A DNA stretch of 64,000 nt from Chitinophagales bacterium. GTDB lineage: Bacteria > Bacteroidota > Bacteroidia > Chitinophagales > Saprospiraceae. How positions within the stretch are numbered: the first letter of the stretch is position 1; each line of letters begins with the position of its first letter. The notes under the pieces are model-generated. The model ran no database searches, was not told the DNA's origin, and saw only the letters and a list, made by a program, of their open reading frames with translations. The position numbers and the translations under genes were made by a program. Below, in pieces: positions 52,186 to 64,000 of this stretch. Location: NCBI GenBank assembly GCA_013298955.1, contig JAAFJT010000002.1, forward strand, positions 1 through 64,000, read 5' to 3'.

Positions 52186-52260
52186 TCGAGACAAGTGGAT
52201 TCGAACCACTGACCCCTACCCTGTCAAGGTAATGCTCTAAACCAACTGAGCTATGCCCCG
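52186..52260 (-). tRNA. tRNA-Val (anticodon GAC)
   Basis: On the minus strand a complete cloverleaf can be folded. The acceptor stem is CGGGGCA/TGTCTCG, the D stem GCTC/GAGC, and the anticodon stem TTACC/GGTAG around loop TTGACAG, giving anticodon GAC. The T stem is AGTGG/CCACT with loop TTCGAAT. The discriminator is A, and CCA is not encoded. Confidence 0.95.
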
Positions 52261-53145: not shown

Positions 53146-53174
53146 ACCATTCATGCGCTATTTCGACCATTTAT
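53146..53174 (+). promoter_or_regulatory. LytTR-type operator before the histidine kinase gene
   Basis: The direct repeat ACCATTCAT (53146-53154), N11, ACCATTTAT (53166-53174) is followed after two bases by the -7-like box TAATTTTG (53177-53184). LytTR proteins bind 9-bp direct repeats about 20-21 bp apart with consensus [TA][AC][CA]GTTN[AG][TG]; this half site matches at eight of nine positions. It suggests autoregulation of the kinase/regulator pair. Confidence 0.55.
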
Positions 53175-53261
53175 TATAATTTTGCACTAAAATAAGGCGC
53201 AATAAAAGGAATAAAGCGAACTTCGTTTTATTTTCTAACGAATTAATGTTTGCAAAATGTA

Positions 53262-56200
53262 ATGCTGAGACAAATATTGCTTTTCTGTGCTTGTTGGTTG
53301 GTGTGGCAACCGATAACAACCGCACAACAACGATTACAGAATTTCTATACACCACAAAATGGATTACCTCAATCTCAAATCATGGGTTTGCTGCAACATA
53401 GTCGTGGACACCTTGTTGGTGGAACGCATAGTGGATTATTTATTTTTAATGGTACTTCTTTTCGGAACGTGCTTGCCAAAGATGGTTTACCGCATCATGC
53501 TGTCGGTGCGCTCACGGAAGATTCAAAAGGGCGTATTTGGTTTATGACGGGTGGTGGGAATAATCGTTTTATAAGTTATTATGACGGAGCAAAAGTCGTG
53601 ACAGACCCGAAATGGCAAACCGATATTAAGCATTTGAATATTCAACATTTTCGCATAGATGTTCACGGGAAATGTTGGTTTTTAGATAATAAAAATTTAC
53701 TTTATGTATATAACGGCAAATCAGTCAATTGCCTTTCTAAAACGAACCCGACATTACAAGGTCAAGTTTTCCATGCGCTTTTGTATGATAAAAAACATGA
53801 CCAAATCTTGCTCGGTACGACGAAAAAAGGGTTTTTCTTATTCAAAAACGATTCTTTGAAAACAGGGGTTTTAGATACAACCTTAGCTAATTATGGTGGT
53901 TTGCAACGTTTAGAATGGCTTGATAACCAACAAAACCATCAAGTTTTAGTTGGAAACCAAATCTATCGCGTCGAATTGGGAAAACTGCGATGGATTCAAA
54001 AATTGAATTATGCTGTGCCTCAACAAATAGGGAGTATTACTCAAACAAGTGATAGTACTTTTTATTTTATGCAAAAGCAATCAAAACGATTGTATTTTCA
54101 AACGGCAAACGGTAAATTAGATTCTTTTCCTGATTTTGAACACCCATTCAATATGGTTTTAGCAGATAAGGCAGATAATCTTTGGGTTGGAACCGAAGGC
54201 GGTTTGTTGCGTATTTTTTCACCCACACATGGAAAGGCTTTTTACAATTTTGACAAAAAGGATTTGAAGCAGATATGGGCTATGTTGGAGGATAAACAGG
54301 GAAATATGTGGATGGGTTCTTATTATGACAAGACTGTTTTGAAAAAAGTGAATCAAAATAAAATTCAATCGGTCAAGAAAGATGCTCAAAATGGGCTGCT
54401 TCAAGGACAAATAAAGGATGAATTTGGTTTTTTTTATTTTGGTGGTGGTGCAGATTCCATTGGAAACCTTTATTTTCCAATGCATTGGGGCATCATAAAA
54501 TATGATGGTAAACAATTTACGTCTTTTTTTCACAACCAGAAAGGCTGTTCCATGTATCTTTATGTGGACAAACAACAAAATACATTACTATCTGCATCTC
54601 TGGAAGGGTTTGATTGGATTAATCTAACGACCCAAGAAAAGCGACATTATGGAATCGAACAGGGGCTTCGCATCAAAGCTGGCGGTTACATTCGTAGCAT
54701 TGCCAAAGCGAATCAACCCAATCAATATTGGTTAGGCGGCGCATCGGGCATTTATTTATTTGATGTGGCACAAGGAAAATGCCTCAAAAGTTTTACAGAC
54801 ATCGAAGGTAATTTTCCTTTTTATGGCAATCGTTGTATTTGGGTGGACACCTATAATAATGTTTGGGCGGGCAGTAGTCAAGGTTTGTTGCGGTATGATG
54901 CTTCAAAAGATCGTTTTGAACTATTTGGCAAAACAGCTATTTATGTTGATGTGAATGCGCTGACGCAGGAACGCAATCATCTGGTCGTTGGGGCGAATAA
55001 TGGACTTTACTTTATGAATCTCGATGCTTTGCAACAAGGTAAAACCGAAATCACGCATTATGACCATCGAAGCGGTTATATCGGTATTGAACCGAATCAA
55101 AATTGCCTTGTCACGGATTCAAAAGGCGATGTATGGGTTGCGGCATCGGATATTGTTACGAGAATTACCCCATCTTTGCTGGCTCCTGCGGATTCGACAA
55201 CCGAAAATATATATGTTTTAAAAGTGAATGAACAATTGATTCCGTATCCGAAGTATGACCAAATTATCGAAATCAATCAAGGGATTGAAACGGTTCATTT
55301 TGAATTAGAAGCGGTCAATTTCCATCATGCAAACGAACTGATTTATAGGTATTCTATTGATGGCGGCAAGTGGCTCGAAACGTCGAGTGCCCATTTATTT
55401 TTCTCAGATTTATCGAATGGGGTGCATACCGTCCGCATTCAAACGATGATTGGCACGATGGATAAAGAAACGGTATTGCGTTTCAAGTTAACTTATCCGT
55501 TCCATCGGCATCGAAATTTCCCTTATTGGGCAGCACTCCTTACGTTTATGCTGATTTCATGGGCGGGTTACGCCTTGCGTCAATCCACGATCCGCGAAAA
55601 GCAAGCGGATTTGAAAAGTCAACAAGCGGATTTTGATAAAAAGAAATTAGCCCTCCAAAATGACGCTTTACAACTCCAAATGCAGCAAACGGCTTTAGAT
55701 AAAATGAAAGCAGAGCGCAAAACGGATATTTTGCGGGTCAAAATGTTGGAAGCACAGATGAATCCGCATTTTATTTTCAATGTTTTATCGGCGATCCAAA
55801 ATTTGATCTTACAAAATAATCCAGAAGTCGCTTCTGAAAATTTGGTTAAAATGGCGCGGTTAATCCGCCTATTTTTAGAGGCGAATAATAACACGTTGTC
55901 GGATGAATTTTCGATGGTTCCGTTAGATAAAGAAATAGATTTATTGAAACGCTATATTGAATTTGAAAAACTGAAGTATGGGGACCGATTCGATTATGAC
56001 CTGAATATTGCCCAAACGATTCAAGATGACCCTGGTTCCATTGAGATTCCAACCATGTTTATTCAACCTTTTGTTGAAAATGCGATAAAACATGGTGTTT
56101 TATCGTTGCCGAATCGCCAAAAAGGATTCATTTGGATAGAGATGTATTTGGAAAACGAAGATTATTTTATTTGCAAAGTCCGAGATAATGGCATTGGGAT

Positions 56201-56372
56201 TGAAGCCTCGAAGGAATTAAATAAACATTCTATCGGCGGACACAAAAGTTTAGGGACTAAAATTATCAAAGATAGGCTCGACAAATTAAATGAATTAGGT
56301 TCGGATGTCCAAATTACGACGACAAATGTAGCAACAGGTGGCACCGAAGTCACGATTCAAATTGGATTATAA
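53262..56372 (+). CDS. Hybrid-sensor type histidine kinase with two-component propeller (LytS/His_kinase class)
   Basis: The protein is 1,036 aa from the ATG at 53262, with a signal peptide ending in TTAQ. Residues about 25-640 form a two-component-regulator beta-propeller (repeats such as DSKGRIWFMTGG, NLWVGTEGGLL, NVWAGSSQGLLRYD). They are followed by a Y_Y_Y domain (about 655-745), one membrane helix (about 753-770) and a coiled coil. The cytoplasmic kinase is of the His_kinase class: EAQMNPHFIFNVLSAIQNLIL with His836, then the ATP-binding FVENAIKHG and KVRDNGIGIEAS. The periplasmic propeller senses an unknown signal. The response regulator follows after 27 bases. Confidence 0.95.
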   Translation: MLRQILLFCACWLVWQPITTAQQRLQNFYTPQNGLPQSQIMGLLQHSRGHLVGGTHSGLFIFNGTSFRNVLAKDGLPHHAVGALTEDSKGRIWFMTGGGNNRFISYYDGAKVVTDPKWQTDIKHLNIQHFRIDVHGKCWFLDNKNLLYVYNGKSVNCLSKTNPTLQGQVFHALLYDKKHDQILLGTTKKGFFLFKNDSLKTGVLDTTLANYGGLQRLEWLDNQQNHQVLVGNQIYRVELGKLRWIQKLNYAVPQQIGSITQTSDSTFYFMQKQSKRLYFQTANGKLDSFPDFEHPFNMVLADKADNLWVGTEGGLLRIFSPTHGKAFYNFDKKDLKQIWAMLEDKQGNMWMGSYYDKTVLKKVNQNKIQSVKKDAQNGLLQGQIKDEFGFFYFGGGADSIGNLYFPMHWGIIKYDGKQFTSFFHNQKGCSMYLYVDKQQNTLLSASLEGFDWINLTTQEKRHYGIEQGLRIKAGGYIRSIAKANQPNQYWLGGASGIYLFDVAQGKCLKSFTDIEGNFPFYGNRCIWVDTYNNVWAGSSQGLLRYDASKDRFELFGKTAIYVDVNALTQERNHLVVGANNGLYFMNLDALQQGKTEITHYDHRSGYIGIEPNQNCLVTDSKGDVWVAASDIVTRITPSLLAPADSTTENIYVLKVNEQLIPYPKYDQIIEINQGIETVHFELEAVNFHHANELIYRYSIDGGKWLETSSAHLFFSDLSNGVHTVRIQTMIGTMDKETVLRFKLTYPFHRHRNFPYWAALLTFMLISWAGYALRQSTIREKQADLKSQQADFDKKKLALQNDALQLQMQQTALDKMKAERKTDILRVKMLEAQMNPHFIFNVLSAIQNLILQNNPEVASENLVKMARLIRLFLEANNNTLSDEFSMVPLDKEIDLLKRYIEFEKLKYGDRFDYDLNIAQTIQDDPGSIEIPTMFIQPFVENAIKHGVLSLPNRQKGFIWIEMYLENEDYFICKVRDNGIGIEASKELNKHSIGGHKSLGTKIIKDRLDKLNELGSDVQITTTNVATGGTEVTIQIGL

Positions 56373-56399
56373 TTATTATTTAAAACGTATTTTAAAAAT

Positions 56400-57188
56400 A
56401 TGACAAGTATAAAAACGGTCATTGTAGATGATTCCGAATCAGATCGGTTGCTTTTGAAAAATCGCTTATCCAAATTATGCCCTCAAATTGAGATTATCGG
56501 GGAAGCCAATGCGCGTGCAACGGGTTTTCAACAAATTAGGGCATTGAAACCTCAATTGGTATTCTTAGACATCGAATTGCAACCAGGTACGGGATTCGAT
56601 ATTTTGAATGATTTTCTAAAAATCGGTTCGATAGATTTCAAAGTTATTTTTTTCACAGGGCATGGCACCAAAGAGAATTTGCGGAAAGCCATTAATTATG
56701 CCGCGCTTCAAGTGTTAGAAAAACCGATTGGCGATGATAATTTACAGGATGTGGTCAACGTGATTCAAGCCTTCGTTCAAACCGAAACGTACAATCAACA
56801 ACTCCAAATGATGTTAGACCTCGTGGTGGATAAAATACCTTCTAAATTACCTGTGGAGACCATGCGCAACGGTACGCTCTTTTTGGAAAAAGAAAAAATT
56901 GTTTATTTGGAGGCAGATGGCAGTGTGACTGATTTTTATCTTTCGGATGGTACGAAGGTGACTGGTAAAAAAAATTTAGGACAGTATCGCCATTCGTTGG
57001 AAGGGAAATCATCGGTTTTTCACATGATTCATCGCAGTTATGTCATCAATGAAAACTATTTGCATGGCTTGGAATCCCGCTCGGAATCCGAACATGTTAT
57101 CTTGACAATGGGAAATAGATTGCAAAAAGTACCCATTTCCCGAAATATGGGTCGGAAATTCAAAGAATATTGGAATTTAAGAGGTTAG
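56400..57188 (+). CDS. LytTR-family response regulator
   Basis: The protein is 262 aa. The receiver domain (1-120) has the acidic pair Asp10-Asp11, the phosphorylation site Asp57 in LVFLDIEL, Thr86 and Lys108 (VLEKP). The C-terminal LytTR DNA-binding domain (about 158-260) includes IVYLEADGSVTDFYLSDGTKV, MIHRSYVINENYLHGLE and VPISRNMGRKFKEYW. It is the partner of the kinase just upstream. The ACCATTCAT direct repeats in the window are plausible targets. Confidence 0.96.
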   Translation: MTSIKTVIVDDSESDRLLLKNRLSKLCPQIEIIGEANARATGFQQIRALKPQLVFLDIELQPGTGFDILNDFLKIGSIDFKVIFFTGHGTKENLRKAINYAALQVLEKPIGDDNLQDVVNVIQAFVQTETYNQQLQMMLDLVVDKIPSKLPVETMRNGTLFLEKEKIVYLEADGSVTDFYLSDGTKVTGKKNLGQYRHSLEGKSSVFHMIHRSYVINENYLHGLESRSESEHVILTMGNRLQKVPISRNMGRKFKEYWNLRG

Positions 57189-57196
57189 AAAATGAT

Positions 57197-57244
57197 AAAA
57201 CAGGAATGCCTTGTAAACAGTGGTTTGCAAGGCACTCCTGTTTT
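57197..57244. terminator. Bidirectional terminator between the regulator and the nuclease gene
   Basis: AAAACAGGAnTGCCTTG pairs with CAAGGCAnTCCTGTTTT, with one mismatch, and there are A/T runs on both sides. It lies between convergent genes. It shares its core with 53035-53073. Confidence 0.8.
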
Positions 57245-57257
57245 CAAGAAGCAGACC

Positions 57258-58136
57258 TTAATCAATATCTATTTTTCGTCCTTTCGCTATTCGTTCAATA
57301 TCTTCCAAATCTAAACCTGTAATTTTAGACACAAAAGCCCAATCAGCACCTTCTGCCAAAGCCTTTTTAGCTGTAATTATATTTGCTTTTCTCATGCCGC
57401 GCCCCTCTGCCGTTTCAAGCACACTACTTTCGATACGGCGATTTTTAATGTGGTGCGAATAGGTTGCTTTTTCTTCTTCAGACATTTTCTCATAATTCAA
57501 GGCTTCTTTGGCGCGTTCCATGCCCTTTGCGTGGAAATCATCTTTAATGTCACTGTTTTTTAAGAAATAAATCCACTCATCTAAGGGGCGTTCAATCACA
57601 TCCTTTTGAAAATTATTGACCCGAATCACATAATATTTGGGAAAAATATCCGCAACGGTCTCAATATTGAATCGTTCTTTTTGATGTTTCGTAGGTTTGA
57701 AAATGTCTTTTTTATGCTTGCCTACGAAATTTCCTTTGTATTCATAGATATAATCCTTGCCTTGTCCTAATCGAAAGTACAAAATATTAATGGAAAAGGC
57801 TTTTTTAATCGTGCTATAATTTTTACCTTCGGAGATATATTCCGTGATTAATTTGGAAATCCCATAAATCATGCGATGAAAATAATCATCTTGATTATCA
57901 TATTGGAGTTCAATCAACATTAATTCACCTTTGGTGGATTTCGCTAAAATATCCACTCGGTCATATTTATCTTGCAAACTTTCTTTGTTGCCTTCGCTTT
58001 CTAAGAGGTTTTCGATGGTCACATCAAATCCTAAGAGTTCGCTTAAAAAGCCTTCTAAAATCATAAAATTTTCCTTATGACGGAGGATTTTTTTCATCGC
58101 CCAATCAAAACTTATAAAGGTGCGTTCTTTACTCAT
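57258..58136 (-). CDS. Rpn-family PD-(D/E)XK nuclease (transposase-like)
   Basis: The protein is 292 aa from the ATG at 58136. The N-terminus (TFISFDWAMKKILRHKENFMILEGFLSELLG) and the catalytic core DRVDILAKSTKGELMLIELQ (Asp, Glu-x-Gln) are those of PDDEXK_2 or Rpn proteins. They are often annotated as recombination-promoting nuclease or putative transposase. The C-terminal part (EGRGMRKANIITAKKALAEGADWAFVSKITGLDLEDIERI) is the usual helical tail. No terminal inverted repeats or target duplications were seen, so it is not shown to be mobile. Confidence 0.9.
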   Translation of the reverse strand: MSKERTFISFDWAMKKILRHKENFMILEGFLSELLGFDVTIENLLESEGNKESLQDKYDRVDILAKSTKGELMLIELQYDNQDDYFHRMIYGISKLITEYISEGKNYSTIKKAFSINILYFRLGQGKDYIYEYKGNFVGKHKKDIFKPTKHQKERFNIETVADIFPKYYVIRVNNFQKDVIERPLDEWIYFLKNSDIKDDFHAKGMERAKEALNYEKMSEEEKATYSHHIKNRRIESSVLETAEGRGMRKANIITAKKALAEGADWAFVSKITGLDLEDIERIAKGRKIDID

Positions 58137-58391
58137 GATTTTTTTTGATTTTTGGTGAATAATCAGCTGCAAATTAACAACATTTAACCCTTCCTAAACT
58201 ATTTTTTTGCTTAAAAGTTGTTCAAAAACCCTCCTTTAATACATTTTGTATTTTAGAATACAGATTTTAACGCATAACTTTTGGTGATTTCGCTCCAAAT
58301 AAATGTCGGGCACGGCTTTCAATTCTGCAATAATGCCTTTCTGTTTTACATTGATAATCAACGATTTATAATTTTAACAAACCACTTATTT

Positions 58392-59582
58392 TCACCTCCA
58401 AATAGGCTGATACACTGAAAAATGTAAGGGTAAATGCTGGTTCAGCATTGAATATTGGAGATACAATTTGCTGAGATGTTCTAATTCATGTTTATAATTT
58501 TCTTCAAAACTAAGCATCACTGCAGCCTTGAAATAACGCAAGGCATTTTTAGAATCCTTTATTTTCAAATAACGCTCGGCATTAATTCGATGAAAAATAG
58601 CAATTTTGGAACGCGTCAAGAGCGTAATCTCACAAGGGTCTTCATAAACATCTAAAATTTTTTCAGCATTGGCAATGTCACCACTTTTAATATAAAGTTC
58701 TGCTTCTCGCATTTGAGCAAATTTATACCATTTTTCATCATCTGAATTTTTATAAAACGAATTAGAATTTTGAAATAATCTTTTTGCTTCCTCAAAAAAA
58801 GGTTGTTTTTGTTGAATTTCACCTTGTCGCATTAAAGTTAACGCAATTTGATGTTGTGTATTCATAAAAAATTCATCCTTTTGATGGCTTTTCAACGGCA
58901 ACGTTTGAGCGAATTGTTGGGTTTCTTTAAAAACGGTCAAGGCTTTATCATATTGATTTAATTGTCTAAATATATGTCCTTGTAAATTAATAGATTGTAA
59001 TAATTTAATCGGTTCTTTTTCCAGTTTTTCAAAGGCGGCTCTACTTTTTTGAGCGAGTGGCAACGAGCCAATCGAACCTTCACTCGTACCAAATTGCATT
59101 TGGATTTTGGCAAAAACAAGGTGAAAATACCCATACAAATAAGGATTATTGGAATGAAGATGTTCAATTTTGATAAAATCATTCAAGTTCGTAATGATTT
59201 TTAACGAAGTCGTCATTTCTCCTTTTTCGGTTAAGAAATCAGTATTGTGAACCGTTTCTTCCACGAATTTGACCGAATTATCAAAATTGAAGAAGGCTTG
59301 CGGTTGGATTTCTTGGCTTTTGCGCCATTGCTCCTTGGCTGTTTTTTCTTGGTATTTGGTCAAAATTTGATGTGCGCTGTCATAAGCCGCAGGCAAATAA
59401 CAAGCCCATTCGACCCTTTCAAACGTAATTGCACCATTGAGAATGTCGTGATACGCTTTACGATGTAACGTTTTGCCAATTTTTTTGCCAAAAGTCCTAA
59501 CAAAATCCGAAGAGGCTCCATAGTAATTGCCAATATCGGATAATAATTCTTTCAAATGGGATAATTGAATGTTGTGCTGCAT
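58392..59582 (-). CDS. Hypothetical helical repeat (TPR-like) protein
   Basis: The protein is 396 aa without a signal peptide. From about residue 145 the sequence is made of paired helices of the TPR type (SINLQGHIFRQLNQYDKALTVFKET, NTQHQIALTLMRQGEIQQKQPFFEEAKRLF, REAELYIKSGDIANAEKILDVYED, AERYLKIKDSKNALRYFKAAVML). The first 110 residues are helical and do not match anything I know. It is probably a cytosolic scaffold. The 219-base gap to the nuclease contains nothing coding that I can support. Confidence 0.7.
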   Translation of the reverse strand: MQHNIQLSHLKELLSDIGNYYGASSDFVRTFGKKIGKTLHRKAYHDILNGAITFERVEWACYLPAAYDSAHQILTKYQEKTAKEQWRKSQEIQPQAFFNFDNSVKFVEETVHNTDFLTEKGEMTTSLKIITNLNDFIKIEHLHSNNPYLYGYFHLVFAKIQMQFGTSEGSIGSLPLAQKSRAAFEKLEKEPIKLLQSINLQGHIFRQLNQYDKALTVFKETQQFAQTLPLKSHQKDEFFMNTQHQIALTLMRQGEIQQKQPFFEEAKRLFQNSNSFYKNSDDEKWYKFAQMREAELYIKSGDIANAEKILDVYEDPCEITLLTRSKIAIFHRINAERYLKIKDSKNALRYFKAAVMLSFEENYKHELEHLSKLYLQYSMLNQHLPLHFSVYQPIWR

Positions 59583-59684
59583 AGAGATGGTCTGTTTAAG
59601 TTACTGTAACAGTTAAACGAATTCAAAAGTTGTGTTACCGTATTTCAAAAGGGCTGAAAAACACTGCCTATTTTTGACCGATGT

Positions 59685-59745
59685 AAAGCTATAAACTATC
59701 AATGCAGAAAATCTGCATTCATAACGCATAGCTTTGTCCATTATT
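59685..59745. repeat. Nested hairpin with TGCATTCAT element (1 of 3)
   Basis: AAAGCTAT and ATAGCTTT enclose AATGCAGAAAATCTGCATT. Two further hairpins with the same TGCATTCAT arm follow at about 59863-59925 and 60151-60175. Confidence 0.75.
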
Positions 59746-59837
59746 ATAAATTATCTTTTATAAAATAATGAAAATAAAATGTAACGGTTTGAAAAAAACG
59801 GATATAATTAAATACGACAAGGTTTTTGGAAGGCAGG

Positions 59838-59935
59838 TTTCAACAAAAGCTCCTTCCGAAAAGCCTAAAAATTATGAATGCATATTTTTTGCATTCATAA
59901 TTTTTAGGCTTTGCAATGATTCCCAATTCCGTTTT
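59838..59935. repeat. Hairpin with TGCATTCAT element (2 of 3)
   Basis: AAAGCCTAAAAATTATGAATGCA pairs with TGCATTCATAATTTTTAGGCTTT around an AT-rich loop. This is the longest of the three related hairpins in the 673-base gap. Confidence 0.85.
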
Positions 59936-59942
59936 TAGGATT

Positions 59943-60012
59943 ACCATTCATAGCCCTTTTTCGACTATTCATGATTTTGAATGCTATTCATAAGTGATTT
60001 TCGACCATTCAT
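59943..60012 (+). promoter_or_regulatory. Array of four LytTR-type half sites
   Basis: ACCATTCAT (59943), ACTATTCAT (59964), GCTATTCAT (59983) and ACCATTCAT (60004) all point the same way, at 21, 19 and 21 bp. Two standard N12 pairs result. The next promoter box (TACTTTTG, 60067-60074) begins 63 bp after the start of the last half site, 21 bp farther than in the single operator at 62317. Confidence 0.55.
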
Positions 60013-60066
60013 GATTTCAACGCGTGGTAACGGATTTGATAATTTTTTTTGTAAAATTTTAGTATA

Positions 60067-60074
60067 TACTTTTG
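60067..60074 (+). promoter_or_regulatory. TAnnTTTG -7 box (TACTTTTG) for the small TPR gene
   Basis: An exact consensus match downstream of the four-site LytTR array. The leader to the TPR gene at 60256 would be about 180 bases and contains the third TGCATTCAT hairpin (about 60151-60172). Confidence 0.5.
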
Positions 60075-60255
60075 TTTAATAATGGGTTAGGCATGAACGA
60101 AACGGAGTTCATATATTGAAAAATAAAATAATTTTTTTATCAAAAATAGATGAATGCACATTATCTGCATTCATAAAACTCAATTTTGCAAAAGATTATA
60201 AATTAATTTTAACAAAAGATGAAAAAAAGGTAACGTTTTTATAATTTTTGATAAA

Positions 60256-60615
60256 ATGGAGGTAAGGTTAAAATCCTTACTGAACGGATTTTATTTTTTA
60301 ACATATTTAACAACCAATTCAATGATGTTTCAAGACCAAAGCAGATTCGCCCACATTGGTGCAAAACAAATGGAGGCTTTTTTTCTAAGCATGAACCAAG
60401 TTTCGGTTGAAAGTGACAACGCTGTTGAATATTATTCGATGGTTGTCGCGCTCCAACCCAATGATAGTCAAGCATTTGTGCTGTTAGGAGATGCCTACTA
60501 TGCCCGCTATGATTATCCGCAGGCGAGAGCCTGTTATCAAACGGCACTTGAAATTGCCCCAAGTAATATCTGGGCGGCGCACTCTTTAAAGACCATGAAT
60601 TATTATGGATGGTAA
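60256..60615 (+). CDS. Small TPR protein
   Basis: The protein is 119 aa from the ATG at 60256; a start at 60322 (97 aa) is also possible and would remove the odd N-terminus. It has about two TPR units: SVESDNAVEYYSMVVALQPNDSQAFVLLGDAYYARYDYPQARACYQTALEIAPSNIWAAHSLKTM. It is predicted to be cytosolic or an adaptor. It lies just downstream of the LytTR-type array, so it may belong to that regulon. No function can be assigned. Confidence 0.6.
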   Translation: MEVRLKSLLNGFYFLTYLTTNSMMFQDQSRFAHIGAKQMEAFFLSMNQVSVESDNAVEYYSMVVALQPNDSQAFVLLGDAYYARYDYPQARACYQTALEIAPSNIWAAHSLKTMNYYGW

Positions 60616-60623
60616 CGGATGCA

Positions 60624-60665
60624 GCACCGTAGTCGGGAAATTTATTTCCCGCTAGCGGTGCTTTT
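60624..60665 (+). terminator. Terminator after the small TPR gene
   Basis: GCACCGtAGtCGGGAAAT pairs with ATTTCCCGcTAgCGGTGC and is followed by TTTT. It shares the CGGGAAAT core with the repeat at 30189-30261. Confidence 0.7.
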
Positions 60666-60757
60666 CAACTCATTGATAATGAGCATTTTTAATATTATAA
60701 AAATTAATTCAATTTTAAATAAAAATCATTTTTAGCTATCAATCCGTTTTTAAAATC

Positions 60758-62002
60758 ATGGAAAGAAACAACAAAGCTACGGCAATTTATAGTCAAGAGC
60801 AGATTAAACAACTCTGTCAAGATTTGAGTAACCACGTTGCACCGCTTTATCAATCTCAAGGCAAACCGATGGATTTCAACAAAACCACTCCTGCTAATTA
60901 TGAGGTTTTGATGGCGGCGATTAATCATGGACGTGCGCCTTATGCCATCAAATGCGAGTGGTTGCGCGACTTATTTACCGTGCATCGCAAAAAACAAAAG
61001 CCAACGCCCATTCAAAAAATTCATATTGGGGCGTGTTGTCAATATTTAGGTTATGCACAGGAGGCGGCGTATTGGGAAGCGATGGATGCCCAAACGCATA
61101 CGTATCTGGGCAAATACAAAGTCTATTGGAAAGGCACGACCGATAATAGCCCTCATAAACCGCCCCTTTATGAGTATGATTTGGAATTAACCAAACATTA
61201 TACGGCATTTATTCCCGTTACCGATAAAAATTTGGAAATTTATACAGGTGCGCCCGCCAGCGTTCATGCAGGCAACGTCTATTTGGAACTGAACCATCCC
61301 AATCTGAGTGAAAAATTCTTTATGATTTTCCATATCGGCATTAGCGGCAGCGATTTAAATACGTTGTCTGCGTTACTGCTTTGCGTGGATAATACGCCTT
61401 GTCCGTGTTCGCTGCCCGTGTTGCTGGTCAAACACAACACGGTAATATGCCCTCATTTTCTCGTTGAATACTTTCGGCGTTACGATGTCAATGGCTTACT
61501 GAAAGGGAAACGCGTCAGCCGATTAAAAAAAATGTTAGATGATTTATATATGAAACAGCTTGATTTACAGCGATTAAGCGGTTTACAAGGCGTTTGGATT
61601 CTGTATATACAGTCCAAAGGCATGGATGTAGAACACATTAAACTTGAAATTCACAACAATCATCAAGTTTCCTGTGATAGTAGTTTGAATTCTTATACAA
61701 ACGGCACGTTAGAATTGCTGGGTGGCAATGTCAAAATCGAATTACGAACGCCTATTTCTTATGCAGTGGTTATTCTTCAAGTCGGCGCGATTATGAAATT
61801 GGAAAATATTCCGGAACCTATCAAAGCAAGATACTTATCATCGGGCAGACTTCAGCCTGAATCGGGTGCTGTTGTGATGGTTCGGACGCAAGTGCCTTTT
61901 GCCGAATTGCCCAAACCTTATTTTATCAAGGCGGACACGCCTCCTTATAATGAACTGAAACAGCAAGGGATTATCGCACTTTTAGATGAATGTGGGAGTT
62001 AA
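60758..62002 (+). CDS. Hypothetical protein of unknown family
   Basis: The protein is 414 aa without signal peptide or membrane segment. The first 105 residues are helical and basic (EQIKQLCQDLSNHV, YAIKCEWLRDLFTVHRKKQKPTPIQ) and may be a DNA-binding or protein-binding module. The rest is beta-rich with TYLGKYKVYWKG, NVYLELNHPNLSEKFFMIFHIG and a cysteine cluster CVDNTPCPCSLPV. I do not recognise the family. The gene is 142 bases after the small TPR gene, with a terminator between, and is followed by its own terminator. Confidence 0.6.
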   Translation: MERNNKATAIYSQEQIKQLCQDLSNHVAPLYQSQGKPMDFNKTTPANYEVLMAAINHGRAPYAIKCEWLRDLFTVHRKKQKPTPIQKIHIGACCQYLGYAQEAAYWEAMDAQTHTYLGKYKVYWKGTTDNSPHKPPLYEYDLELTKHYTAFIPVTDKNLEIYTGAPASVHAGNVYLELNHPNLSEKFFMIFHIGISGSDLNTLSALLLCVDNTPCPCSLPVLLVKHNTVICPHFLVEYFRRYDVNGLLKGKRVSRLKKMLDDLYMKQLDLQRLSGLQGVWILYIQSKGMDVEHIKLEIHNNHQVSCDSSLNSYTNGTLELLGGNVKIELRTPISYAVVILQVGAIMKLENIPEPIKARYLSSGRLQPESGAVVMVRTQVPFAELPKPYFIKADTPPYNELKQQGIIALLDECGS

Positions 62003-62003
62003 G

Positions 62004-62057
62004 TTTTCAGATGGAATTCACTCAGTAACGGAAAATCAACTGAATTCCACCTGAAAA
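62004..62057 (+). terminator. Terminator of the 414-aa gene
   Basis: TTTTCAGaTGGAATTCA pairs with TGAATTCCAcCTGAAAA around a 20-base loop, just after the stop. It resembles the palindromes seen elsewhere in the window and could act in both directions. Confidence 0.65.
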
Positions 62058-62109
62058 ATGAGGTGAATTACCTTAATAGGTGTGTCTCGTTTTTTACAAA
62101 AATTCACTA

Positions 62110-62117
62110 TACTTTTG
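62110..62117 (+). promoter_or_regulatory. TAnnTTTG -7 box (TACTTTTG), upstream copy
   Basis: An exact consensus match in the long leader region. It is followed by TATCAAA and, 60 bases on, by an AATAATATATTAAAATATT block (62172) that recurs at about 62430. Confidence 0.35.
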
Positions 62118-62316
62118 TATCAAAATTTGCAATCGAATGATTTGTATTGGAGTTCAAATGAAAGTAGGGTGAATAATATATTAAAATATTTTTTTTACAT
62201 AAAAAATAATCATGTGTTAGTTAATTGTATTATTAAAAATGTTGTGATGGAATAGTTTGAAAGTTAAGGTTTTAACAAGGATTTTTTTTGTAAGAACCAT
62301 GTTAAAACCTTTTTAA

Positions 62317-62345
62317 ACCATTCATGCGCAAAAACGACCATTGAT
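62317..62345 (+). promoter_or_regulatory. LytTR-type operator before the small Lys-rich gene
   Basis: ACCATTCAT (62317-62325), N11, ACCATTGAT (62337-62345). The promoter box TACATTTG (62379-62386) begins 42 bp after the start of the second half site. Between them GAAACGATTAAnCATA is also found in the copy at 63521. Confidence 0.6.
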
Positions 62346-62378
62346 TATGTTGTTGAAACGATTAAGCATACATTGAAT

Positions 62379-62386
62379 TACATTTG
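62379..62386 (+). promoter_or_regulatory. TAnnTTTG -7 box (TACATTTG) with TTG 23 bp upstream
   Basis: An exact consensus match with a TTG at 62353, a suitable -33 spacing. The leader to the ATG at 62578 is about 190 bases. Confidence 0.55.
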
Positions 62387-62577
62387 TAGATGTAATTTAT
62401 TTGTATCAAAGTTAAAAAATGGATGAAAATAATATATTAAAATATTTATTTTACATAAAAAATAATAATATGTTAATATATTTTGATTTAAAAAAACGCA
62501 TAATTTTAATTGTGTATATAAATAAGGTCTTCGCCTAAAACCTATTTTAAACAGAGGGCAAATTTACATTTTACAAC

Positions 62578-62742
62578 ATGGCTGAAAAATTCAGAGACGG
62601 CAACAGCAACAAAAATGAAAAAAACTTTGAAAAAAGTGCTGAAGCCCTCAACAAGCAAAAAGCAGAACAGGCGGCTCTTAAAAAAGCAAAAGAGGAGGCT
62701 GAAAAATTAAAAAAGCAGATTCCTCCGAAGAAATCAAAGTAA
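62578..62742 (+). CDS. Small Lys/Glu-rich protein with possible -1 frameshift extension
   Basis: The protein is 54 aa, MAEKFRDGNSNKNEKNFEKS and on, a charged helix ending KKQIPPKKSK. Inside the Lys-rich part is the heptamer A-AAA-AAG in the slippery frame (62709-62715), ten bases after AGGAGG (62693-62698). A -1 shift there would replace the last eight residues with ADSSEEIKVTASPATMFDGK... and stop at 62822, giving about 81 aa. Either this is programmed frameshifting, or an A was lost from the run. The gene follows a LytTR-type operator. Confidence 0.55.
   Translation: MAEKFRDGNSNKNEKNFEKSAEALNKQKAEQAALKKAKEEAEKLKKQIPPKKSK
62709..62715 (+). promoter_or_regulatory. Slippery heptamer AAAAAAG with upstream AGGAGG
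   Basis: The codons TTA AAA AAG place A-AAA-AAG in the X-XXY-YYZ register. The Shine-Dalgarno-like AGGAGG ends 10 bases before it, the spacing known from E. coli dnaX. Confidence 0.35.
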
Positions 62743-62898
62743 CGGCTTCGCCAGCTACGATGTTTGACGGCAAGATAGACAAGTTCAAACGGGTCCGATT
62801 TACAGAAATGGAACCTTATTAGGAAGATGCTTGCCATAAAAGGCACTTCTAAAAAGTGCAAATTCAAATTTTTAGTAATCAAATTTTCAAATTCAATT

Positions 62899-63303
62899 AT
62901 GAAAAAGGTTTTTTTAAGCTTAGTTGCTCTTATTTTGCTTGCATCTTTTGCAGCACCAGTACAACATCCATTGACATGCGATAGTACCCTGTGTAAAACA
63001 GGGCATCATGGACACGTTCAATCTGGTAATATTTACAAGAATGGCAACCTTATCGAAAGTATTATGGCACCTGCATCTGTCGAATGCGACCATGTTGACC
63101 ACGTAGGTGTAAAAGACGGTTTAGATAGATGCGCCAATTGCAATCGTTCCGAAAAGGGCTTTTCTATCTACCAATGCAGAGGATGTAACTTTATTGGATG
63201 TTTTAAATTGAGTTATGTTGGTAAAAGCAGTGGTTGTTGGACAGCAAGTAGATGCCCAAGATGCAATAAATTGAATGATTACAAGATGCTTGGTACTTTG
63301 TAA
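62899..63303 (+). CDS. Exported cysteine-rich protein with zinc-ribbon-like motifs
   Basis: The protein is 134 aa from the ATG at 62899, with a signal peptide (MKKVFLSLVALILLASFAAP). The mature part has CDSTLCKTGHHGHV, CDHVDHVG, RCANCNR, QCRGCNFIGC and CPRCNK. Three CxxC pairs suggest one or two metal-binding ribbons. Such ribbons are uncommon in exported proteins, where the cysteines could instead form disulfides. It lies 77 bases after the frameshift-extended end of the previous gene and may share its transcript. Confidence 0.65.
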   Translation: MKKVFLSLVALILLASFAAPVQHPLTCDSTLCKTGHHGHVQSGNIYKNGNLIESIMAPASVECDHVDHVGVKDGLDRCANCNRSEKGFSIYQCRGCNFIGCFKLSYVGKSSGCWTASRCPRCNKLNDYKMLGTL

Positions 63304-63370
63304 TCACAAGTGTATTGTGCAAACTTGTTACTTGTTTATGGCAACAGGGAAGTAACAAAGCGTCCATGTC

Positions 63371-63443
63371 GTTAGACTTTAAAGCGTTTAAATTGGTTTG
63401 CAGCGTGTGTAAACTCTTTAGAAACCAGTTTAAACGCTTCAAA
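63371..63443. repeat. Inverted repeat after the cysteine-rich gene
   Basis: CTTTAAAGCGTTTAAATTGGTTT pairs with AAACCAGTTTAAACGCTTCAAAG with two mismatches. It is probably the terminator region of the 62578-63303 unit. The rest of the 360-base gap holds the operator and promoter box below. Confidence 0.8.
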
Positions 63444-63520
63444 GTCATCCGTTTCATCTGTATTCCAATTGGGAAGCTCATCTTTCTGACATGTAGTAAA
63501 TTTTTTTTTCAACCATTAAG

Positions 63521-63549
63521 ACCACTCATTGCTTAAAACGACTATTGGT
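63521..63549 (+). promoter_or_regulatory. LytTR-type operator before the T9SS cargo gene
   Basis: ACCACTCAT (63521-63529), N11, ACTATTGGT (63541-63549). The promoter box TATATTTG (63582-63589) begins 41 bp after the start of the second half site, as in the operator at 62317. It is less perfect than the other sites. Confidence 0.45.
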
Positions 63550-63581: not shown

Positions 63582-63589
63582 TATATTTG
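63582..63589 (+). promoter_or_regulatory. TAnnTTTG -7 box (TATATTTG) for the T9SS cargo gene
   Basis: An exact consensus match 74 bases before the ATG at 63664. Confidence 0.55.
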
Positions 63590-63663: not shown

Positions 63664-64000
63664 ATGAAACGTTTACTCAAAACGGGTTTGTTTTTATCCA
63701 TGATTTCAGTCTGCCGTGCGCAAACGGTCATGCCAACGGTTGTGAACAGTTTGGGCAATCAATTCACCGTTCAAGCGACCACCTTTGAAATATCGGTTGG
63801 CGAAAGCGTCATTACGACTTTGCAAAGTAATAATGGCACTGTGACACAAGGTTTCCTACAACCAACTTACGCATTGCCAAATGCAGTAACGGAATTGGAA
63901 CAACGTAAAATACGTATTTTTCCCAATCCTGCAACCGATTATTTGTATTTGGAAGGCTATATCCAAATTTCGCATTACAGTATTCTTTCCATGGCGGGTG
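63664..64000 (+). CDS. Secreted protein with T9SS type A sorting domain (3' end missing)
   Basis: The open frame runs from the ATG at 63664 off the end of the window; 112 residues are visible. It has a signal peptide (MKRLLKTGLFLSMISVCRAQ), a short beta-rich part (QFTVQATTFEISVGESVITTLQ) and the start of a T9SS sorting domain (IRIFPNPATDYLYLEGYIQISHYSILSMAG). The motif FPNPATDxLxL is characteristic. It may be a small protein made of little more than the sorting domain. It follows a LytTR-type operator. Confidence 0.85.
   Translation, partial: MKRLLKTGLFLSMISVCRAQTVMPTVVNSLGNQFTVQATTFEISVGESVITTLQSNNGTVTQGFLQPTYALPNAVTELEQRKIRIFPNPATDYLYLEGYIQISHYSILSMAG

Follow-up and report, generated by a model that had tools for sequence, protein, structure and literature searches.

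A cluster of predicted LytTR-type operators beside a propeller kinase–LytTR regulator pair, ahead of type IX secretion cargo genes

The window (the whole stretch of DNA analyzed, 64,000 nucleotides) contains a sensor kinase gene followed by the gene of a response regulator with a LytTR DNA-binding domain, and short direct repeats stand upstream of this pair as well as upstream of several genes further along the same strand. The initial annotation read these repeats as operators through which the regulator controls its own kinase gene, a TPR gene, a Lys-rich/Cys-rich unit, and a type IX secretion system (T9SS) cargo gene. The question raised by this locus is whether the repeats are indeed operators and, if so, whether the neighboring regulator is the protein that binds them.

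Results

Predicted operator sites and their occurrence in the genome

All of the described sites, three with two repeats each and one array of four half-sites, were found exactly as quoted and are intergenic (cf. Table 1). Their repeats are separated by N11 at the three window sites and at a further site at contig position 66174, and by N12 inside the array, which is within the 11–13 bp known for LytTR sites built of 9–11 bp repeats (PMC4847170). The genome-wide motif search that had been proposed as a check was made with the pattern ACYAYTNRT-N11-ACYAYTNRT over 4,684,908 bases (the whole genome, 4.68 Mb) and yielded four exact matches, as compared with about 0.65 expected from the half-site frequency in flanking DNA. 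All four were found on the + strand of a single contig in a 13-kb cluster (C112:53146-66202), and none of them was in a coding region. When one mismatch was allowed, 13 matches were obtained, the same number as for the reversed-pattern control, which is reported at this one-mismatch level; the weight of the argument is therefore carried by the exact matches and by the fact that they lie together. Within the window alone, a loose pattern (up to three mismatches) was not above chance (4 matches vs 2.3 expected), and a genome search with a single half-site plus box gave 18 matches, mostly with varied gaps, and no convincing further site. The sole match in the Rfam search was a tRNA (52186-52260).

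Table 1 Features of the locus. Positions refer to the window unless the contig (C112) is given.
Feature	Position	Strand	Basis
Predicted LytTR-type operator, two 9-bp direct repeats, ACCATTCAT-N11-ACCATTTAT; upstream of kinase-regulator operon	53146..53174	+	pattern search
TAATTTTG box abutting the 53146 operator	53177-53184	+	box scan
Sensor kinase with Reg_prop beta-propeller, His_kinase, and HATPase_c domains; signal peptide, with ATG 53262 as the probable start	53262..56372	+	Pfam
Response regulator: receiver and LytTR DNA-binding domain (PF04397); likely binder of the operators	56400..57188	+	Pfam
Four-half-site array, two N12 pairs, ACCATTCAT(59943)-N12-ACTATTCAT(59964)-N10-GCTATTCAT(59983)-N12-ACCATTCAT(60004)	59943..60012	+	sequence
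TAnnTTTG box next after the array	60067-60074	+	starts 63 bp past the last half-site's start
TPR protein (119 aa), probably controlled by the array	60256..60615	+	Pfam
Predicted operator, ACCATTCAT-N11-ACCATTGAT, centre near -60 from inferred start	62317..62345	+	pattern search
-7 box TACATTTG	62379..62386	+	42 bp from second half-site's start (62317)
54-aa Lys-rich ORF with ATG 62578 (identified by eye); the 62317 promoter is followed first by this gene and then by the Cys-rich ORF	62578..62742	+	sequence
Cys-rich secreted protein; 158 aa when read from the first ATG, with the ATG near 62899 as the probable start of the signal peptide	62827..63303	+	no Pfam match
Predicted operator, ACCACTCAT-N11-ACTATTGGT; paralogue of the 66174-66202 site	63521..63549	+	pattern search
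-7 box TATATTTG	63582..63589	+	41 bp from second half-site's start (63521)
T9SS cargo gene, Por_Secre_tail; extends beyond the window to contig 64122	63664..64000	+	domain search
Fifth, paralogous operator site, N11, 2.2 kb beyond the window	C112:66174-66202	+	genome pattern search

Site-to-box geometry and a duplicated promoter module

The distance of 41 or 42 bp between site and box that had been noted for two of the sites holds when counting begins at the first base of the second half-site, and the site at 66174 follows the same rule (42 bp, with the box at contig position 66236). At 53146, the box begins 11 bp from that point, whereas at the array it is placed about two helical turns further out than 41–42 bp, so neither of these sites has the geometry common to the other three. 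With the box set at -12 to -5, where the -7 box was mapped in Flavobacterium (PMC9723704), the operator centre falls at -59 to -60 at 62317, 63521, and 66174, which is not the case at 53146 or at the array. The promoters of the 41–42 bp sites have no clear -33 TTTG.

The sites at 62317, 63521, and 66174 are parts of one duplicated module, alignable for about 250 bp that take in the leader and a terminator-like sequence, and these three of the five sites are therefore not independent of each other. The stretch between site and box (GAAACGATTAA / GAAACGATTAAnCATA) is conserved, as the initial annotation stated; however, judging from the alignment, this is due to shared ancestry via the duplicated terminator-operator-promoter module and not to a separate motif, so the conservation of GAAACGATTAA is not independent evidence. 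The T9SS cargo genes at 63664-63730 and at contig 66318-66380 have nearly identical signal peptides (MK.LLKT.LFLSMISVCRAQT) and similar promoter modules, while the mature proteins are different; promoter and signal peptide of the two genes were evidently duplicated as one cassette.

Genes of the cluster

The kinase comprises PF06580 and PF02518, which form a LytS-type His_kinase module as in the LytS/LytTR two-component systems BtsS/BtsR and YpdA/YpdB. The Pfam search detected propeller repeats (Reg_prop) in it but no sensor domain of LytS type, so that its sensor is not of the multi-transmembrane LytS type. Seven LytTR domains are encoded in the whole genome, and only the one at 56400 is near the sites. 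A PD-(D/E)XK transposase-family gene (PF12784) on the - strand (57258-58136) separates the regulator gene from the remaining putative regulon. Other downstream genes code for a 414-aa protein without Pfam match and, after the T9SS cargo gene, a 642-aa secreted protein. Beyond the window, the 66174 site is followed by an operon-like run of T9SS proteins (C112:66174-77726; loci L014 and L015), namely a 247-aa Por_Secre_tail protein, a 2121-aa CHAP/Fn3/SprB-repeat/CHU_C protein, a 1019-aa CHU_C protein, and PorP/SprF. The regulon thus appears to extend past the window to the site ahead of this large T9SS/CHAP/SprB-repeat operon.

The array ends 244 bp before the TPR gene, and the single intergenic region that holds it also carries three copies of an inverted repeat, ATGAATGCA-N7-TGCATTCAT (59698-59722, 59874-59898, and 60150-60174; one copy with one mismatch), found nowhere else in the genome at up to two mismatches. 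Compared with the operator half-site, its arms are changed at 2 of 9 bases, and a long hairpin (-31.9 kcal/mol) has the middle copy at its core.

Recurrence in other genomes

A set of places blind to the box was obtained by scanning 398 Saprospiraceae genomes with the half-sites only, which gave 29 non-repetitive places. A -7 box matching at least five of the six fixed bases was located exactly 41–42 bp from the last half-site at eight of these (p ~4e-9), against a background of 1.4% per offset pair at other offsets; all eight were among the 14 intergenic places, as compared with none of the 15 coding ones. An earlier offset probability (p=4e-21) was set aside in favor of the box-blind value, since part of its sites had been picked by their box. 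The complete operator-plus-box pattern was found nine times in the same 398 genomes vs zero times for the reversed control. Across about 85,000 species, the strict architecture had five exact matches, all in Bacteroidota (two in Dyadobacter, two in Saprospiraceae [G229 and G100], and one in another Bacteroidetes MAG). A class-wide search with 16 gaps allowed gave 15 matches vs 3 for controls, and 5 of the 13 non-own matches (one orthologous duplicate removed) were at 41–42 bp (p=0.016), which hints that this architecture may be widespread outside the family.

The sites elsewhere tend to be found with LytTR genes: the operator-to-gene distance is 84 bp in G126, 9 bp in G229, 27 bp in G034, and 95 bp in the Bacteroidetes MAG, the locus of which was found by the DNA pattern alone, while in G100, G157, and G241 LytTR genes are 2–4 kb from the sites. 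Propeller-type kinases similar to the 53262 kinase precede the regulator in both G229 and G034. At the Bacteroidetes MAG locus (L169:4150-5641), a LytTR regulator gene is followed, 95 bp on, by operator and -7 box and then by small secreted-looking proteins of similar size, and this arrangement is possibly a minimal version of the same circuit. The operator-box architecture upstream of a gene for a small secreted-looking protein is also kept in two Dyadobacter species (L165:4509 and L167:1835), and there the 8 kb of sequence covered contain no LytTR gene.

The regulator itself has no close orthologue in 60 relatives, in 397 other family genomes (best match, 39% identity), or in the wider genome-contig database, so the operator cannot be traced along with it. 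Its LytTR domain is divergent, being 20–23% identical to the other operator-linked LytTR domains, and its residue corresponding to AgrA R198 is Met. Arg occupies the position of the DNA-contacting AgrA residue N201 in 8 of 8 operator-linked regulators vs 7 of 40 others (p=5e-5 for the first seven operator-linked regulators), which is only suggestive, since the family as a whole has Arg as its consensus at this position. A search of solved structures with the regulator returned only receiver-domain matches and, for the LytTR region, a single weak match (3d6w), and the DNA contacts were therefore taken from the AgrA literature.

Comparison with known LytTR systems

The half-site, the spacing, and the -60 position agree with characterized LytTR sites (PMC4847170, PMC4227749, PMC6193735). 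LytTR-type operators lie at a constant distance ahead of a promoter, at about -60 or immediately before the -35 region. AgrA operators are centred about -60 from the start site, and AgrA activates weak promoters (PMC4227749); its sites at agr P2/P3 of Staphylococcus aureus share with the present ones the 9-bp direct repeats and the centre at about -60 as computed here, but differ in half-site sequence, in having -35/-10 promoters, and in a quorum-sensing kinase instead of a propeller kinase. The pln regulon of Lactobacillus plantarum likewise has a cluster-specific LytTR regulator (PlnC/PlnD), and tandem repeats stand ahead of several operons at its locus, that of the regulator among them (PMC2714321), whereas its half-sites are TACGTTAAT with N12 and its targets are bacteriocin genes. 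In Escherichia coli, YpdB at yhjX uses a direct repeat, GGCATTTCAT-N11-GGCATTTCAT, which has the 11-bp spacer and the CATT..CAT core in common with the present sites (PMC4847170); the differences are 10-bp half-sites, a single main target, and a LytS-type sensor.

Operons of LytTR Regulatory Systems (LRS) and LRS-like operons of Bacteroides also have ACCACTTAC/ACCATTCAA-type repeats, 11–12 bp apart at a fixed distance from the promoter; listed examples are ACCACTTAC-12-ACCACTTGC and the S. aureus half-site ACCATTCAA (PMC6193735). An LRS is positively autoregulated through repeats ahead of the promoter of its own operon; at the kinase-regulator operon, repeats are present at 53146, but the -7 box abuts them. 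An LRS, however, combines a LytTR regulator lacking a kinase with a co-transcribed inhibitory membrane protein, while here the regulator contains a receiver domain and its gene follows that of a histidine kinase, and the half-sites of the Bacteroides operons are different (TCCGGTATTCA/ACCGGAAATCA). Since two Bacteroides operons have already been predicted to carry LytTR repeats ahead of a TATCTTTG -7 box (PMC6193735 Table 3), the present cluster represents a known kind of switch.

Discussion

Taken together, the sequence comparisons make it very likely that the sites are operators of the LytTR regulator encoded at 56400-57188, which would govern a local regulon activated from -60 with 41–42 bp to the -7 box. 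The neighboring protein is the likely binder because it is the sole LytTR protein of seven near the sites and because the same operator stands beside LytTR genes in four genomes. We propose that the propeller kinase, when stimulated, would phosphorylate the regulator, two molecules of which would occupy the 9-bp direct repeats on one DNA face, with the centre near -60. The bound regulator might then recruit RNA polymerase to the sigma-A -7 box (TAnnTTTG), 41–42 bp past the start of the last half-site. The activated set would comprise the Lys/Cys-rich unit and the T9SS cargo operons located at 63664 and 66318, with the TPR gene as a probable further member; if transcription continues, the 66318 operon would reach the CHAP/SprB-repeat/CHU_C adhesin and its PorP/SprF partner.

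The earlier regulon reading thus stands as regards LytTR-type operators, a local regulon, and the likely binder, while two of its parts are weakened. The assignment of the TPR gene is less secure because of the box at 63 bp, the long distance from array to gene, and the odd inverted repeats. At the kinase operon, the different geometry means that positive autoregulation cannot be assumed, and the box abutting the operator makes it more likely that the regulator represses or fine-tunes its own synthesis there. A bolder proposal would be a dual-sign regulon, in which the same regulator activates the T9SS adhesin/CHAP operons from -60 and represses its own kinase operon from the operator next to the -7 box, the choice of half-site is read by the Arg at the AgrA-N201 position, and the protein also recognizes ATGAATGCA-N7-TGCATTCAT around the array as operators of a second, inverted type; we regard this combination as rather doubtful.

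The sites might also be genuine LytTR operators that are bound by one or several of the other six LytTR regulators, whose existence, together with the diversity of motif-linked regulators elsewhere, speaks for this assumption. Nevertheless, every exact site is at most 13 kb from the 56400 regulator gene, one of them being in the leader of its own operon, and the adjacency to LytTR genes recurs in other genomes, so we consider binding by another regulator unlikely. A further explanation is that the likeness reflects mere duplication of a promoter module along with secreted-protein genes, the repeats having no regulatory role, as the alignment of the 62317, 63521, and 66174 modules and the near-identical signal peptides of the 63664 and 66318 products could suggest. 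This is very unlikely in view of the 53146 site and the array, which carry the repeats yet stand outside the module, and of the same repeat-to-box geometry at unrelated loci in other genera. Finally, loose matches do arise by chance in the window and low-complexity ACCATTAAT runs were found in relatives, but the exact matches are genome-unique and co-located, and the box-offset test (8/29) and the absence of reversed-control matches for the operator-plus-box pattern leave hardly any room for chance matches in AT-rich intergenic DNA.

Among the open-access papers searched, none was found that defines an operator for a kinase-linked LytTR regulator in Bacteroidota or that connects LytTR operators to type IX secretion targets or to Saprospiraceae. 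The present analysis contributes the fixed 41–42 bp coupling to the Bacteroidota -7 box and its recurrence beside LytTR genes elsewhere, as well as the extra operon past the window and the odd geometry of the kinase operon. The combination of ACCATTCAT-like repeats, N11/12 spacing, and TAnnTTTG 41–42 bp on is sufficiently specific for regulated promoters to be predicted from sequence, and the system offers a test case for activator action on Bacteroidota -7 promoters that have no -33 element. These findings also suggest that operons for surface adhesins can have a sensor dedicated to them.
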